This document shows, piece after piece, positions 37,244 through 43,601 of a DNA stretch of 64,000 bases (the first letter of the stretch is position 1; each line of letters starts with the position of its first letter). Where the stretch lies: contig NZ_CP009518.1 in NCBI RefSeq assembly GCF_000970325.1, forward strand, positions 620,001 through 684,000, in the 5' to 3' direction. The stretch comes from Methanococcoides methylutens MM1 (GTDB taxonomy: Archaea > Halobacteriota > Methanosarcinia > Methanosarcinales > Methanosarcinaceae). The translations under genes and the position numbers were made by a program. A model generated the notes under the pieces. That model was given only the letters and a program-made list of their open reading frames with translations. It ran no database searches and was not told the origin of the DNA.

Positions 37244-37331
37244 GCGGGGGTTGCCCAGCCAGGCCAAAGGCGCTAGGTTGAGGGCCTAGTCTCGTAGGAG
37301 TTCGTGTGTTCGAATCACACCTCCCGCACCA
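37244..37331 (+). tRNA. tRNA-Leu (GAG), copy 1
   Basis: Acceptor GCGGGGG/CTCCCGC, anticodon stem CTAGG/CCTAG with loop TTGAGGG (anticodon GAG, codon CUC), long variable arm, T arm GTGTG-TTCGAAT-CACAC, discriminator A and an encoded CCA. Identical to copy 2 over 88 nt. Confidence 0.96.
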
Positions 37332-37412: not shown

Positions 37413-37500
37413 GCGGGGGTTGCCCAGCCAGGCCAAAGGCGCTAGGTTGAGGGCCTAGTCTCGTAGGAGTTCGTGTGTTCGAATCACACCTCCCGCACCA
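37413..37500 (+). tRNA. tRNA-Leu (GAG), copy 2
   Basis: Exact repeat of the 88-nt upstream gene including CCA, after an 81-bp spacer that itself holds two hairpins (37338-37355 and 37362-37381). No strong TATA box lies in the spacer, so the two are probably made as one precursor. Confidence 0.96.
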
Positions 37501-37668: not shown

Positions 37669-39597
37669 TTATTCGTCTTCTTCAATGTGCTCAGCAACGC
37701 CCATTACAACGATCCTGGTTTCCACTATCGTATCATGTCCTTCAAGAAGCACTTCATCCTTTTTGATGTCTATCTTGACTGAATCCGGATCAAGATCTGC
37801 TTCTTTCATGTATTCATAGATAGTGTCTTTGCCAATACTGATTGCATGCTCCACTGCATCTTCATATTCGTAGAAGTTCTCTCTTCCTTTTTCGGAATAT
37901 ACATAGAACTCCCATTCCGGTGCAGCCATGGATGCCGGTCGTATCAATATTTCGACTCTCCTGATGCCTTTTGCAGCCAATGCCCCTGCGGCATTGCCCA
38001 CATTTGCGAATTCTGGAAGTATTATCTCTGCATCGATCAATTCCTTCATCTCTTCAAGATATGCTACCACAGGGCCGCCGATCAGCACCACCGGTACATG
38101 TACCTTGAACTGGATGGGTGATTCTGCATCGAATATATTGCGTATCTCCTCTCTAGATATCTTTTCAAGGAAAAATGAAACAAGATCTGCTGCCATGTTC
38201 TTGGCAAACTCTCTCTTTACATGGGATGCAAACTCATCTGCTTCCATCTTATATAGGGGGGCGAGGTGCTTTGCACCGATGCGTGAAGCTTCCGCATTGT
38301 ATTCCGTATACTCTCCAAGCACATGCAGGGCATCCGTGGGTGTGAAACTGATCGGTTGTATCAGCCGTTTTTGCATGAGTGTATCCAGATGTTTTGATGC
38401 CGGGTATTTGTTGATACGTGAACGTATCTCCTTGAGGGAAGTTGGCTCAGGGGAAATGGCATTGAGGATCTCTGTTTCCAGATCAGTTAGCTCAAGGGGT
38501 TCATACTCTGTCCTTATGTAGAACTTGGTGGGCTGAAAATTCCTTCCCAGTAATGCTTTGGAAGGCATCGGGTTGGTTGCGATCTGCTCGAGGAATTTCG
38601 GGAACTGTGCTGCTGCCCTGCATAATGGAATGACCCTTCGTGGTCCGAAGTTGAGCTTTCCTGAAGCGATCCAGATATCACTGTCTCCTCCAAGTGCCGA
38701 AGTTTCCATCCTTATGGCCTTGACCCTTGTCTTCCATCCACCGACCACTGCCCCGGAGTCACTCATTTCAGGTACGTCGTTTCTTATCACGGACACATCA
38801 GTACTTGTTCCACCTACGTCTATGACTGCACAGCTATCTTTCTTTGAGAGGAATGAAGCACCTACGAGACTTCCTGCAGGTCCTGAGAATATGGATTCGA
38901 TCGGTCTTTCCAGTGCACCCTTGATTCCGATAACAGATCCGTCACATTTGAGCATGAATATCTTTGATTCCATGCCACGGCCTCTTATCTCAGATTCCAC
39001 ACTGGACATGAACTTCTCTGTTATGGGAAGCAATTGTGCGTTGAAGAATGCTGTTACAGCTCTTTCAAACGCTCCGAGGTCCTGTGATAGTTCATGTGCA
39101 CACACCACAGGCATGCCTGTGATCTTCCTGATGATCTCCTTGACCCTCAGTTCATGTTCAGGGTTGCGGATGCTGAAATAAGATGAGACTGCAAAAGCTG
39201 AGACATTTTCCTTTGCTCTCCGGGCAAACTCCTTTACTGCATTTTCATCCAATTGTTCTGCTTCAAACCCCTTATGGTCATGGCCTCCTTTAACCTGTGC
39301 GAAATGTTCTGTGGGAAGATCAGATCTGGTGAAATAATCTCCTACAAGGATGAGTCCCACAGGGAAACCGGTGCCTTCAAGGATTGTGTTGGTTGAAAGG
39401 GTGGTGGAAACTGATACCACATCTACCTGTGAAAGTATTTCCTGATCAATGCCGTCAAGTGCTTCCCGGATACCCTCCAGCGGATCGGGATAGGTTGTGA
39501 GTGCCTTATAGGATGCAATTATTGTATCATCCGGGCTTTTTACAACAACTGCATCTGTATAGGTGCCACCTGCATCAATTCCAAGATTTAATTTCAT
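37669..39597 (-). CDS. Hydantoinase/oxoprolinase-family ASKHA ATPase-like protein
   Basis: A protein of about 642 aa. The N-terminal HyuA-type region has the phosphate-binding LGIDAGGTYTDAVVV and later CAVIDVGGTSTDVSVI and IFSGPAGSLVGASF, the actin-like nucleotide site. A middle segment (about 370-440) with leucine-rich helices looks like a winged helix insertion. Classic family members are ATP-dependent hydantoinases or 5-oxoprolinases, but here the gene is last in an operon with an MtmB homologue and a Cdc6-type ATPase, so a role linked to methyl transfer is possible. ATG 39597 has GGAG 6 nt upstream; ATG 39603 is too close to it. Confidence 0.85.
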   Translation of the reverse strand: MKLNLGIDAGGTYTDAVVVKSPDDTIIASYKALTTYPDPLEGIREALDGIDQEILSQVDVVSVSTTLSTNTILEGTGFPVGLILVGDYFTRSDLPTEHFAQVKGGHDHKGFEAEQLDENAVKEFARRAKENVSAFAVSSYFSIRNPEHELRVKEIIRKITGMPVVCAHELSQDLGAFERAVTAFFNAQLLPITEKFMSSVESEIRGRGMESKIFMLKCDGSVIGIKGALERPIESIFSGPAGSLVGASFLSKKDSCAVIDVGGTSTDVSVIRNDVPEMSDSGAVVGGWKTRVKAIRMETSALGGDSDIWIASGKLNFGPRRVIPLCRAAAQFPKFLEQIATNPMPSKALLGRNFQPTKFYIRTEYEPLELTDLETEILNAISPEPTSLKEIRSRINKYPASKHLDTLMQKRLIQPISFTPTDALHVLGEYTEYNAEASRIGAKHLAPLYKMEADEFASHVKREFAKNMAADLVSFFLEKISREEIRNIFDAESPIQFKVHVPVVLIGGPVVAYLEEMKELIDAEIILPEFANVGNAAGALAAKGIRRVEILIRPASMAAPEWEFYVYSEKGRENFYEYEDAVEHAISIGKDTIYEYMKEADLDPDSVKIDIKKDEVLLEGHDTIVETRIVVMGVAEHIEEDE

Positions 39598-39638
39598 ATT
39601 CATCTCCGTTGTTTAGGTTCAGTTAAATTATGCTGGCA

Positions 39639-40820
39639 TCACAGTTCTTTAAGCCTGTAGTCCATGTAGAGTATGTCTTCTATCTTCTTTGGGTTCTTCC
39701 TGATCGATACCAAACGTGTCTTTCCATACCTTCCCCTGCTACGCACAGGTGCTGAAATGATTCCCATCATGTCGAATTCTGAGACGATCCCTGAAACACT
39801 TGTACGACCCAGGGGGTTCGTGCCCATCTGCTCGCAGTACTTCCTGTAGAGCATTTCTATCTGGCCTGTTGTTATCTTATCGGTTAGTTCCTCTGTAAGT
39901 CGGATGATGCTGAGAAGAACAAGTTTTGAATTGATAGGTAGGTTTTCCAGTGAGGTTAACAGGTCCTTTTCTCCCATTTCTTCATTTGCCAGCAAGACTT
40001 GTTTCTCATTTATTCTTTCCTCATTCGAAATATCTGCGATGGTACCTGCTCTTTCCAGCAAGGTCAGGGCTTTCCCGCAATCATGTTCAACCCCGGATAG
40101 CTTCGTACATAGTGAAACGACCCCCCTGTCAACAGCATCTTCCACAAACGCAATTTTACAGCGCTCATTCAGTATCTGCTCAACCTCTTCCTCGCTATAT
40201 GGTGGAAATATTATGTTTCTGTACTGGAGTGCCGAAAGAACAGTATTCTCGGCCTTAGCGTAAAAGAATATGTCATCACTAATTCCAATAATACCTATGA
40301 ATATGTCTTCTTCGATGCTCATATTCTCGCCAGCATAGCTGAGTTCATAGAGTACATTTTTGTCTTTCAGAGCTTCGATTTCATCAAGTACCACAATGAT
40401 TGTGGTCCTCTTTTCGTTCAGAGCTTTCCATAATGCCCTATAATATTTCCCCATTGAGAGTCCTGTTCTTGGAACTTCCGTTTCGGGTGATACCTTGTTC
40501 AGTATCTCAAGTATGATCTTGCTGGTCGTGCTGATCTTCTGGCAATTGATGAAGATCGGAACAGCGTTAAGATCCTTCGTCTCAATGTTAGTGCTCAGCT
40601 GTTTCAGGAGAAATTTCACAACAGTTGTCTTGCCTGTTCCTTTAATTCCGGATATCAGTACATTTGCAGGCTCTCCGTGGTGGAGGACAGGTCTCATCAG
40701 TGATGCAAGTTCTGTTACTTGCTTTTCTCTTCCAATAAGCCTGTCCGGAAGATACCTTGGAGAAAGCGCTGCCCTGTTCCTGAATATCTGGATTCCATCT
40801 GTTCCAAATATGTCATTCAT
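39639..40820 (-). CDS. Orc1/Cdc6-family AAA+ ATPase
   Basis: A 393-aa protein with Orc1/Cdc6 layout. N-terminal LSPRYLPDRLIGREKQ, Walker A GIKGTGKTT (58-66), Walker B IIVVLDEIEAL (141-151), sensor region SALQYRNIIFPPYSEEE and a C-terminal winged helix that would bind DNA. Known members recognise replication origins. Unusually, it lies between the MtmB-like and hydantoinase-like genes with gaps of 16 and 41 bp, so it is co-transcribed with them. It may be an initiator or a transcription regulator of this operon. ATG 40820 starts MNDIFGTDG; an upstream ATG at 40877 lies inside the preceding gene. Confidence 0.88.
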   Translation of the reverse strand: MNDIFGTDGIQIFRNRAALSPRYLPDRLIGREKQVTELASLMRPVLHHGEPANVLISGIKGTGKTTVVKFLLKQLSTNIETKDLNAVPIFINCQKISTTSKIILEILNKVSPETEVPRTGLSMGKYYRALWKALNEKRTTIIVVLDEIEALKDKNVLYELSYAGENMSIEEDIFIGIIGISDDIFFYAKAENTVLSALQYRNIIFPPYSEEEVEQILNERCKIAFVEDAVDRGVVSLCTKLSGVEHDCGKALTLLERAGTIADISNEERINEKQVLLANEEMGEKDLLTSLENLPINSKLVLLSIIRLTEELTDKITTGQIEMLYRKYCEQMGTNPLGRTSVSGIVSEFDMMGIISAPVRSRGRYGKTRLVSIRKNPKKIEDILYMDYRLKEL

Positions 40821-40836
40821 GTTAATCTCGCAAATC

Positions 40837-42207
40837 TCACTCGATGCCACAATACTTGCTAACTTCTGTAAATACATCCTTGTATATACCCAGATATTCT
40901 TCTGAAGGTCTCATGTCATATTCCGATCTTACGTTATAACATTCACTGAAAGGTTTACCTTCAGGAGCATATGCCAGCAGGTTTTCATATTTCCTGTAGA
41001 TGTTCCTTGCAGCCTCATCTGCTTCCAGAAGTGACAGCTCGGTTGCCATGTGCGCAACTTCTCCCATGAACCTGGATTCAAGTCCGGTGGAGTGGTCCGC
41101 ACCTGCTCCACGGGCACCTACTGGCCCTATCAGCATGTCCCTTCCACAAACAGTATCTCCGATGGCCTGTGCAGCGGTCTCATAGAACATCATGTCTGTA
41201 CAGCAGCCTGCAAGGTTCCAGTAATATCTTGCTGTGTAGTGGTGCATGTTGCGTGAAATAGCAAGGGATGACAGGTTAGATCCCCACATGATCTCTTTTG
41301 TTGAGGATGAGTTCGTATTCACATGCACTGCACCGGAAACATGCAAACTGGCACCTGTGAGCAGCTTTGACTGGATGGTCTCTGCCACATCTACAATAGC
41401 AAGGCCTTCAGGAGTGCCTATGCCTGTTCCTCCAAAGACCGGACATTGTCCGCTCAGGAAATGGTTTCCATGCTCAAGATGGAATATCGATTTGTAGAAT
41501 GTCTCATAATCGGTCTTAAGTTCATCCAGCTGATAGACCTCCTGTACATCTGCGCTGGAATACAGTTCCTCGGAAGAAACCAGCATATATGCGGGTGAGA
41601 TGGTTGGTGTTCCGGGTCCCATCAATGTGAGACCTTCACGACCCGCAAGTTTGGTGGCAAGTCTTTCTTCCCTGGCTTCCTTCAGCGCGGCAAGCATCTC
41701 AAATGGTGTTTTCCCGCGTATTCCTTTGCCTCCCATCTTTTCAAGTGCACCTGCATATATGCCCTGCACAATAGGTTCCATGGCAGAACTCACGTGAACT
41801 TCAAGGAAGTTCTCCTCGGAAACAGTGCCTCCCATAGGTCCTCCGATTATGACTGGTGGTTCAGAGTCCATAATGTACCTGAAGGGCACTGTGACCTTTT
41901 CATTCTTCCTTCCTATCTCAAGTGCTTCGGAAGTGTTTAGATATCTGCTAATGTCTTCTTCTTCTATCTGTATTGTTTTCTTTGTATCAGTACAGTAGAT
42001 CCCCACAGATGTCAATAATTGGACTGCAGCTTCAAATACGGAGTCTGCAAGGCTCGTATCTGTTGGTACAATACTTTCCCCGTCATATTTGATATCGAAT
42101 TCTTCAGCCAGTTCCTGTGATTTCATGAACACATTCATGTCATGTTTTTCTTCTGGTTTCTCTTCGCCTGTTGTTGCAGATCTGAGGTACTTGTATATGT
42201 TGTTCAT
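40837..42207 (-). CDS. MtmB-family methyltransferase lacking pyrrolysine
   Basis: A 456-aa homologue of monomethylamine:corrinoid methyltransferase MtmB. Shared blocks include VGIYCTDT, IGGPMGGTVSEE, PVFGGTGIG, AIVDVAETI, AAQAIGDTVCGR and TGLESRFMGEVAH. MtmB normally reads an in-frame UAG as pyrrolysine within the segment x-G-x-x-Pyl-G-P-x-T-x-x-S. Here that place is LTLMGPGTPTIS and the codon is ATG (41622-41620, Met196). No in-frame TAG occurs in the gene. Its substrate is therefore uncertain. No corrinoid protein or MtbA gene lies beside it. AAGGAGTC sits 6 nt before the ATG. Confidence 0.88.
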   Translation of the reverse strand: MNNIYKYLRSATTGEEKPEEKHDMNVFMKSQELAEEFDIKYDGESIVPTDTSLADSVFEAAVQLLTSVGIYCTDTKKTIQIEEEDISRYLNTSEALEIGRKNEKVTVPFRYIMDSEPPVIIGGPMGGTVSEENFLEVHVSSAMEPIVQGIYAGALEKMGGKGIRGKTPFEMLAALKEAREERLATKLAGREGLTLMGPGTPTISPAYMLVSSEELYSSADVQEVYQLDELKTDYETFYKSIFHLEHGNHFLSGQCPVFGGTGIGTPEGLAIVDVAETIQSKLLTGASLHVSGAVHVNTNSSSTKEIMWGSNLSSLAISRNMHHYTARYYWNLAGCCTDMMFYETAAQAIGDTVCGRDMLIGPVGARGAGADHSTGLESRFMGEVAHMATELSLLEADEAARNIYRKYENLLAYAPEGKPFSECYNVRSEYDMRPSEEYLGIYKDVFTEVSKYCGIE

Positions 42208-42235
42208 AATATTGACTCCTTTTTGTCCCGTTTTT

Positions 42236-42254
42236 GTCTTTTTTTATATCATTT
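42236..42254 (-). promoter_or_regulatory. Probable TATA box of the MtmB-like operon
   Basis: On the minus strand GATATAAAAAAAG (about 42240-42252) lies some 35-45 bp upstream of the ATG at 42207, the right distance for a short leader. Confidence 0.45.
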
Positions 42255-42279
42255 TGTTTTACTTTCGATTTTGTGAAAC

Positions 42280-42368
42280 TCCATGAAATACGTCCTCATA
42301 CTTCAATTGACATGGAGTTTATATATAGTTTTCCATGTTATTAACTTCAACACCTATTTTGACATGGA
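42280..42368. promoter_or_regulatory. Symmetrical four-site TCCATG array
   Basis: Sites: TCCATG 42280-42285 (+), CATGGA 42311-42316 (-), TCCATG 42332-42337 (+), CATGGA 42363-42368 (-). Start-to-start spacing is 31, 21 and 31 bp, that is about three, two and three helical turns. Sites 1 and 2 extend to a 10-bp perfect inverted repeat, AAACTCCATG and CATGGAGTTT. The array is centred on 42324, inside TTTATATATA (42318-42327). It looks like a cooperative operator or a small origin-type element. Confidence 0.7.
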
Positions 42369-42381
42369 GAAGTTAAAAATG

Positions 42382-42391
42382 TTTGATCAAA
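42382..42391. repeat. Palindrome TTTGATCAAA
   Basis: A perfect 10-bp palindrome just outside the four-site array. It may be an additional operator; no other support. Confidence 0.25.
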
Positions 42392-42453
42392 TTGTTTTTT
42401 TGATCGATCTATTGGATATTGTTAATATATCACATTGTAAAAGATCCTCGAAT

Positions 42454-42486
42454 ACTTTCACCCCGCTTGGCAGTCATTAATATATC
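42454..42486 (+). promoter_or_regulatory. Promoter with ACTTTCACCCCGC upstream element
   Basis: ACTTTCACCCCGC (42454-42466) lies 10 bp before TTAATATAT (42477-42485). The same 13-mer lies 11 bp before the TATA box of recQ (60041-60053). This promoter drives the 26-codon gene at 42520. Confidence 0.6.
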
Positions 42487-42519
42487 CAGAAGTAATTGTA
42501 GTATTTGAGGTGAAATAAT

Positions 42520-42600
42520 ATGGATGATTTCTTTACAGAACTGGTAAACAGAGCAAGATACTATGAACAATTTGAAGAATTCGTAAGAGCACACAAATGA
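42520..42600 (+). CDS. 26-residue microprotein
   Basis: ATG at 42520 with GAGGTG 7 nt upstream opens a 26-codon frame starting MDDFFTELVNRARYYEQF and ending ...FVRAHK, then TGA. It is rich in aromatic and charged residues and could form one amphipathic helix. A promoter with a conserved element lies 35-65 bp upstream and a stable hairpin with T-tract follows. No homologue is recognised. The upstream and downstream signals are its main support. Confidence 0.5.
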   Translation: MDDFFTELVNRARYYEQFEEFVRAHK

Positions 42601-42615
42601 GCTCGTTAGAACATT

Positions 42616-42675
42616 GGCCGTAGTTCCTCCATCCCGTCAGAGTTGTTTGCTTTCGCTGCGGCCCTACTTTTTCCA
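42616..42675 (+). terminator. Hairpin and T-tract after microprotein gene
   Basis: GGCCGTAG (42616-42623) pairs with CTGCGGCC (42656-42663), with one G-U pair, enclosing a 32-nt loop; CTACTTTTTCC follows. It may be a terminator or part of a small RNA covering the microprotein gene. Confidence 0.5.
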
Positions 42676-42749
42676 ATTTGTCTTTTTCCTTGTGACTACC
42701 TATTTTGGATCAGGATTTTGTACGATAGTCCAGATCATGAAAGATCAGA

Positions 42750-43601
42750 TCATTGGCAATGACCATCGCCTGTTTTGCTAATTTCTTTAAGAAAATGGTT
42801 TGTTCGGTGATTTTCTTTCTTCTTCTGTTCAGCCAGACGTGCCTGATATATACGAATTGATCTTAAGAAGTCGATCCTGCGAAACTCGGGCCAGAAAGGT
42901 GCGCAGAAATATGCGGCACATTCATTTCCGTTAGCCTGCCAGGGGAGGAAATTGGATATTCTTTCATTTCCGCCTGTACGTATTATAAGGTCAACATTAG
43001 AGACTGCTGCACCTTCTGAAGGATAAAAATGATCGGCAATAGTGGATTCGTTGATCTCTTCCAGTGACAGTTGTCCCTTAAGGACCTTATCTGCCATTTT
43101 CCTGACAGCCTGGACGATATCCTGCCTTCCGCCATAGGCAAGGGCAACATTCAGGTTGAATTTGTCGTAGTCCTTTGTTGCCTGTTCTATCTTCCTGGCA
43201 GATTTCTGAAGCTCTTCCGGAAGAAGGGAATGATCTCCTATAACACGCACTCTTATCTCTCTTTCATGAGTTCGTTCGCTTTCTCTCATATAATCGAACT
43301 TATTTCCGATAAGGTCAAAAAGCTGCAATGTTTCATCGGAAGACCTGTTAAAGTTCTCTGTGGAAAAGGCATAGACTGTGAGTTCTTTCACACCGATGTC
43401 ATATGACCATTCTATTACTTTTTCAGTCACATCTGCGCCCTTTGAGTGGCCATAGCTCGTTCTTTTCCCAAGCCTGCTAGCGAACCTACGGTTACCGTCC
43501 ATTATTATGGCCACATGTTCGGGAACAGTTCCGCTCTTAACATCTTTTGAAAGAACCCTTTCATAGGTCTTGTAGAAGAGGTTCATAAGGGATCTGATCA
43601 T
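42750..43601 (-). CDS. uppS: cis-prenyltransferase (polyprenyl diphosphate synthase)
   Basis: Makes long-chain polyprenyl diphosphate for glycan carriers (dolichol-type in archaea). 283 aa. Catalytic region IIMDGNRRFA with D35, YGHSKGAD, VYAFSTENFNR and LIIRTGGNERISNFLPWQ are present. ATG 43601 has GGAGG 7 nt upstream, favoured over the codon at 43616. It is likely co-transcribed with the small gene upstream. Confidence 0.94.
   Translation of the reverse strand: MIRSLMNLFYKTYERVLSKDVKSGTVPEHVAIIMDGNRRFASRLGKRTSYGHSKGADVTEKVIEWSYDIGVKELTVYAFSTENFNRSSDETLQLFDLIGNKFDYMRESERTHEREIRVRVIGDHSLLPEELQKSARKIEQATKDYDKFNLNVALAYGGRQDIVQAVRKMADKVLKGQLSLEEINESTIADHFYPSEGAAVSNVDLIIRTGGNERISNFLPWQANGNECAAYFCAPFWPEFRRIDFLRSIRIYQARLAEQKKKENHRTNHFLKEISKTGDGHCQ

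Follow-up and report, generated by a model that had tools for sequence, protein, structure and literature searches.

Monomethylamine methyltransferase (MtmB) carries pyrrolysine (Pyl), specified by an in-frame UAG codon, at position 202. The first characterised homologue that dispenses with this residue is MtqB of Methanococcoides methylutens Q3c, which demethylates tetramethylammonium and choline (Kashyap et al., 2026; PMC13044021). Recombinant MtqB methylates cob(I)alamin at 37 nmol/min/mg with tetramethylammonium and 42 with choline, and weakly, at 11, with monomethylamine (MMA); its gene sits downstream of the corrinoid gene mtqC, and the MtqB proteins of strains Q3c and AM1 are reported to be 78% identical (PMC13044021). 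A non-Pyl MtmB homologue from 'Ca. Formimonas warabiya' DCMF, about 30% identical to other MtmB-family proteins, is strongly induced on dichloromethane (PMC9768040). As with the protein described below, a function different from the demethylation of MMA is suspected for it; unlike that protein, it is bacterial, and the likeness between the two is by description only. Pyl-free members of the MttB family (COG5598, e.g. MtgB) also use other methylated amines, but this is a different protein family, whose similarity in fold to the protein studied here is distant (TM about 0.5-0.6).

The window (the whole stretch of 64,000 nucleotides analysed, positions 620001-684000 of the single-contig, 2,394,636-base genome of M. 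methylutens MM1) contains a further non-Pyl MtmB homologue, of a clade that we call type A. From comparison of sequences we consider it reasonably probable that this gene encodes a corrinoid methyltransferase that needs no Pyl and acts on a methylated amine different from monomethylamine, with an Orc1 paralogue of its own as regulator. The coding features that bear on this reading are as follows:

40837-42207, minus strand: type A non-Pyl MtmB homologue, 456 aa (PF05369, structures, tree)
41620-41622, minus strand: ATG codon of Met196, which the alignments pair with Pyl202 (UAG in mtmB)
39639-40820, minus strand: second operon gene, Orc1/Cdc6 paralogue of 393 aa counted from a conserved start, MNDIFGTDG, the full ORF being 39639-40877 (TIGR02928, E = 4.7e-99; Cdc6_C winged helix)
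37669-39603, minus strand: third operon gene, hydantoinase-A/oxoprolinase-like ASKHA-type protein of 644 aa (PF05378, PF01968)

The initial annotation had described the first gene as a full-length MtmB homologue with methionine at the pyrrolysine site, and this description is borne out. Residues 3-452 match positions 2-448 of the 450 in the Pfam MtmB profile (PF05369, E = 5.5e-158), with a score of 526.9 bits against a curated cut-off of 25 bits that places the protein firmly in the superfamily; a search of NCBIfam returned no model for the type A protein. When solved structures were searched with phmmer, the sole matches were those of Methanosarcina barkeri MtmB (1l2q/1nth and 1tv2/1tv3/1tv4), to which the window protein is 32% identical. 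The same search pairs the M of 'LTLMGPGT' in the window protein with the Pyl of 'GMGVXGPET' in 1l2q/1tv2, and a 93-row alignment also sets Met196 in the Pyl202 column, so that the site does not fall elsewhere in the protein and the ATG at 41622-41620 stands where MtmB has an in-frame UAG. The proposed modelling of the barrel succeeded in part. An AlphaFold model from a 22-row alignment (pLDDT 81, pTM 0.86) superposes on 1tv2, 1nth and 1l2q with a TM of 0.92, but its confidence is lowest at residues 191-215, the stretch around Met196, and pocket geometry was set aside for that reason. The window protein thus resembles M. barkeri MtmB1 (1l2q/1nth/1tv2) in length, in the barrel and in the conserved C-terminal blocks, and differs from it in having Met for Pyl202, Gly for Glu259 and Tyr for Gln333, and in that no mtmC adjoins its gene.

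Judged by its sequences, type A is a distinct and widespread clade in several genera of the Methanosarcinaceae. In our tree it has support of 100/98, and the Pyl MtmB clade (100/100) stands apart from it and does not include the window protein. Type A genes, taken as those with at least 59% identity and without TAG at the site, are present in 47 of 112 genomes of the family, and a scan of the genomes of 84,980 species found them in Methanococcoides, Methanolobus, Methanosalsum, Methanohalobium and Methanomethylovorans, as well as, at 56-57% identity, in two bins named Methanosarcinales and Methanomicrobia. None of the 51 distinct members has TAG at the site, where the residues are Met (40), Leu (4), Phe (3), Val (3) and Ile (1). 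The methionine is conserved in the Orc1-linked subclade to which the window protein belongs (13/13) and not strictly so across type A; what takes the place of Pyl is thus hydrophobicity at this position more than a special methionine. The approximately 50 orthologues, a reading that is open with no TAG at this site, and the dN/dS of the gene (NG86; 0.05-0.09 against two Methanococcoides relatives) together rule out chance, a sequencing error, a frameshift or a lost TAG. No biochemistry, expression or phenotype was found in the literature for any type A protein. Methanolobus bombayensis (G112; L047, L048, L122) has three type A paralogues in one genome, one with an MtqC-like gene, one in a methylamine cluster and one alone. 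We also note a further non-Pyl MtmB clade, type B (L033 8376-9722, L034 7582-8949, L035 7886-9244 and L115 7367-8734). It occurs in one Methanococcoides genome as well as in genus g13, which is probably Methanosarcina, and in a genus related to g13; its genes lie near mttB, mtbB and corrinoid genes, and no function was found for it.

How type A relates to MtqB could be addressed because the MtqB clade can be anchored. In the genomes searched, a non-Pyl mtmB gene lies directly downstream of an MtqC-like gene at three Methanococcoides loci (L113, L114 and L116), and the protein of strain AM1 (G098) is 77% identical to that of L113 (L113 against L116). These three loci and two relatives form a clade with support of 100/100, apart from type A, from the Pyl MtmBs and from type B. 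The window protein, itself a non-Pyl MtmB homologue, falls outside this clade and is 31-32% identical to its rows (about 30% for type A against MtqB); the window has no mtqC directly upstream of the gene, and a search of the genome for an MtqB-clade gene found none. Since type A is a separate, well-supported clade at about 30% identity and has no mtqC beside it, it is not MtqB, and the tree, the gene context and the residues discussed below lead us to reject the window gene as an MtqB orthologue. The two are alike in being non-Pyl members of the MtmB family from the same genus, in having Tyr in place of Gln333, and in that an MtqC-type corrinoid protein is encoded in the genome. They are unlike in the residues at 205, 229, 259 and 260, in that no corrinoid gene adjoins the type A gene of this genome, and in the orc1-like and hydantoinase-A-like genes of the window operon.

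The residues around the Pyl site, numbered here by their positions in M. barkeri MtmB, also set type A apart. Glu259 is replaced by Gly in 46 of 51 members and Gln333 by Tyr in 49 of 51 (Gly253 and Tyr328 of the window protein, which lacks these two residues of a Pyl-dependent MtmB), Ser stands for Asp258 and Asn for Pro336, and Glu229 is kept in 48 of 51. Glu259, Gln333 and Glu229 presumably all lie at Pyl in the MtmB structure. The loss of Glu259 and Gln333 along with Pyl suggests a re-made pocket, and the occurrence of Tyr333 in type A and the MtqB clade alike suggests that the two dispense with Pyl in a similar manner. MtqB-clade rows have Tyr333 (5/5), Cys259, Met205 and Met260, and MtqB has lost Glu229; as type A lacks the Cys259 and Met205 of MtqB and keeps Glu229, its pocket would differ from that of MtqB. 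These residues also bear on whether type A could still be a monomethylamine methyltransferase that has merely dispensed with Pyl, which we regard as very improbable. The low MMA activity that MtqB retains (11 against 37-42 nmol/min/mg; PMC13044021) and the Glu229 kept in type A are compatible with it, but Glu259 and Gln333, which we take to be Pyl contacts, are lost, and two mtmB genes that do contain the in-frame TAG, each adjoining a corrinoid gene, already serve this purpose in the same genome.

Of the readings considered, the different methyl donor suggested in the initial annotation has the strongest support, since MtqB, the first characterised non-Pyl MtmB, uses tetramethylammonium and choline. 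The parallel that the annotation had drawn with the glycine betaine enzyme of the non-Pyl MttB family is now matched inside the MtmB family itself by MtqB, which gives the idea of a Pyl-free MtmB with another donor its precedent. Several leads come from what the organisms consume. M. vulcani is described, in a title cited in PMC4239356, as a user of betaine, choline and dimethylethanolamine. The genome of M. vulcani SLH 33 (G099) has type A and no MtqB-clade gene. Another genome (G139), which is probably that of Methanomethylovorans hollandica, has type A next to mtbA and also an MtqC-like orphan gene. M. hollandica dominated a tetramethylammonium-fed reactor, although a search of its genome yielded no homologue of MtqBC (PMC5748143). 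These facts are leads, and MttB-family enzymes could also explain them. Dimethylethanolamine as the sole role is argued against by M. burtonii, which is reported to use it, and neither choline nor betaine, and whose most likely genome in our set (G091) has no type A gene.

The choline use of M. vulcani and the tetramethylammonium reactor of M. hollandica would both be accounted for if type A were a second, diverged enzyme for the MtqB substrates, tetramethylammonium and choline. The change of Gln333 to Tyr, common to all MtqB-clade rows, and the existence of an MtqC-like corrinoid partner are in keeping with this as well. Nevertheless, type A is a separate clade at about 30% identity without the Cys259 and Met205 of MtqB, strain AM1 (G098) carries both enzymes, and M. 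methylutens DSM 2657, a possible carrier of type A, reportedly does not use choline; on balance we find identity of substrates unlikely, though it deserves to be kept in mind.

For the favoured reading, a methyltransferase with another methylated amine as donor, a corrinoid partner is needed, and M. bombayensis offers a candidate. There, an intact MtqC-like corrinoid gene (motif DxHxxG; L047 7197-7844) lies 41 bp upstream of one of the three type A genes. The genome of the window has an orphan corrinoid gene at 708225-708863 that is 84-85% identical to the one in M. bombayensis, has the DxHxxG motif intact and no methyltransferase neighbours, and lies 46 kb from the type A gene. Such orphans form a clade (100/98) next to MtqC, and orphans and MtqC group together with support of 100/99. 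Type A is present in 13 of the 14 genomes with a gene of the MtqC-like orphan clade (Fisher p = 4e-5, uncorrected for relatedness). The orphan is absent from the type-A genomes G095, G096, G097 and G099 and from nearly all Methanolobus, and in these another partner would be required. Type A genes of Methanolobus and of the related genus g11 have mtbA and mtmB/mtmC/mtbB/mtbC as neighbours, which makes other partners likely there. A promoter motif common to the operon and the orphan corrinoid gene was sought and none was found, the orphan promoter having no ORB-like pair.

In Methanococcoides the type A gene is followed by the Orc1/Cdc6 paralogue and then by the hydantoinase-A-like gene, and we infer both the co-transcription of the three and the roles of the two neighbours. 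All or part of this order is found in the relatives G106 and EBM-47; in G077 the orc1-like and hydantoinase-A-like genes are adjacent, on a contig other than that of type A. Purifying selection acts on all three genes (dN/dS 0.05-0.13): by NG86 against the two Methanococcoides relatives, the hydantoinase-A-like gene has values of 0.06-0.07, and the orc1-like gene has 0.13 against one relative, the comparison with the other being saturated. One Methanococcoides bin (G097; L036, L037) has the operon at two places, with type A genes 83% and 90% identical to that of the window; the second copy is accompanied by part of uppS, and its orc1-like gene is split into two reading frames. In the window itself, a pair of adjacent tRNA-Leu genes, at 37244-37331 and 37413-37500 on the plus strand, share the anticodon gag.

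The product of the second gene has the AAA+ domain, lid and C-terminal winged helix of Orc1/Cdc6 and has retained both Walker A and a wing motif, RGRYGKTR, the counterpart of SKGRYGRTK in the genome's main Orc1. It is approximately 33% identical to that main Orc1, and paralogues at least 47% identical to the window protein are present in only 13 genomes, all 13 of which have type A. A non-initiator Orc1 that acts as a transcription regulator is known in Sulfolobus, where Orc1-2 binds its own promoter (PMC9738581). Binding of this kind is proposed for the window paralogue; in Sulfolobus it serves a DNA-damage response, whereas here a methyltransferase operon and ORB-like repeats would be involved. 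The third gene is one of many in its family, with 6-9 matches in each Methanococcoides genome, and some of its paralogues, in this and other genomes, lie beside mtaCB or mttB/mttC/mtbB genes. Predicted hydantoinases have also been noted near mtaCB2 in Methanosarcina acetivorans (PMC11619418). This proximity to methyltransferase genes makes it plausible that the hydantoinase-A-like protein helps to handle corrinoid methyltransferases; a search of the literature for the role of such proteins gave no answer.

The loss of Pyl and of the residues around it, in an operon that encodes a likely DNA-binding regulator but lacks a corrinoid gene, might instead be expected of a non-enzymatic sensor or regulatory MtmB paralogue that works with the Orc1-like protein. 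We consider this improbable. The barrel is strongly conserved, with approximately 110 invariant positions among 24 aligned members and a dN/dS of 0.05-0.09. Beyond the Methanococcoides group, an orc1 gene is missing next to most type A genes, many of which adjoin methyltransferase genes instead, and MtqB shows that the fold can be catalytic without Pyl.

The region upstream of the type A gene contains the following elements:

42352-42369, minus strand: upstream ORB-like repeat, CTCCATGTCAAAATAGGT (0.09 matches expected in the window)
42330-42338: second inverted half-site, ACATGGAAA, conserved in the promoter alignment
42318-42328, minus strand: TATA box between the repeats, CTATATATAAA, read from the sequence and conserved in 13 aligned promoters
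42300-42317, minus strand: downstream ORB-like repeat, CTCCATGTCAATTGAAGT, at a distance of 52 bp from the upstream one
42276-42285, minus strand: inverted half-site, CATGGAGTTT, conserved in the promoter alignment
42520-42600, plus strand: divergent 26-codon ORF, MDDFFTELVNRARYYEQFEEFVRAHK, which shares the intergenic region with the operon

As we read the sequences, the repeats resemble ORBs (TTCCA, then GAA or CAA, then GGT), and the inverted half-sites contain CATGGA. This layout as a whole recurs in the promoters that were aligned. In a search with a 17-base pattern, the type A promoters of G000, G092, G094, G095, G096, G097 (both copies), G098 and G099 each had a pair of matches with a spacing of 52-53 bp, and that of G093 had one repeat; among the matches listed there was no 52-53 bp pair elsewhere, nor was there one in the two Methanococcoides genomes without type A. 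In G093 (L230 9879-16173), approximately 6 kb of other genes lie between the operon and uppS with the small ORF, and an ORB-like box is left at the old site (G093:C5:125807). All nine Methanococcoides genomes with type A have a single copy of the 26-codon ORF, and the two that lack type A have none; the window and G094 copies differ by synonymous changes, and in AM1 and G096 the ORF lies on a contig other than that of the operon. Between uppS and this ORF there is a conserved element, GGGCCGCAG...CTACGGCC (window ~42603-42670), in several Methanococcoides genomes. A structured RNA in the leader (42150-42800) was considered and dropped, as the Rfam match was sub-threshold and no family reached the threshold.

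An orc1 gene adjoining ORB repeats is the usual layout of an archaeal origin (PMC3528665), and the three-gene unit is located at differing places in different Methanococcoides genomes; the orc1-like gene and its repeats might thus be a replication origin or the remnant of an integrated element, with the methyltransferase as a passenger. The evidence makes this decidedly improbable. The main orc1 gene lies at base 343 of the chromosome, adjoined by repeats with the G-run of true ORBs (e.g. TCCAATGGAAACAAAGGGGT), whereas the operon repeats have no G-run and keep a constant distance from each other across the methyltransferase gene's TATA box; moreover, the gene order is kept and all three genes are under selection. 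The GC skew, which has only a shallow maximum near 36 kb of the window, is not decisive.

Returning to the Pyl-independent methyltransferase with its own regulator, we infer the following course for catalysis, substrate and partner. The TIM-barrel enzyme would take a methyl group from a methylated amine, with quaternary amines as the first candidates (tetramethylammonium, choline or a relative), and transfer it to an MtqC-like corrinoid protein in its Co(I) state, from which an MtbA-type enzyme would then form methyl-CoM. In MtmB, Pyl would bind and activate the small amine; in type A, the hydrophobic residue together with Gly259 and Tyr333 would leave a pocket for a substrate whose positive charge has activated it beforehand, as has been suggested for MtqB. 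The Orc1 paralogue would most likely be the operon's transcription regulator, acting via the ORB-like repeats that flank the TATA box, and the hydantoinase-A-like ATPase may service the corrinoid protein. More tentatively, the locus could represent an initiator paralogue turned dedicated regulator, with ORB-derived boxes bracketing the TATA box, of a Pyl-independent methyltransferase whose substrate would be new to methanogens.

New here is the type A operon of Methanococcoides and its relatives, with a dedicated Orc1/Cdc6 paralogue, a hydantoinase-A-like ATPase and a conserved promoter in which ORB-like repeats lie on both sides of the TATA box. Much of the methane from marine sediments stems from methylated amines. 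The MtqB clade was given a function in 2026, and type A is a second wide pyrrolysine-free clade, for which no function was found; its members are candidate enzymes for substrates whose users lack a known enzyme, such as choline in M. vulcani. For the question of what purpose pyrrolysine serves, type A adds a second case from nature, and its operon may exemplify the conversion of an archaeal replication initiator into a regulator of metabolism.
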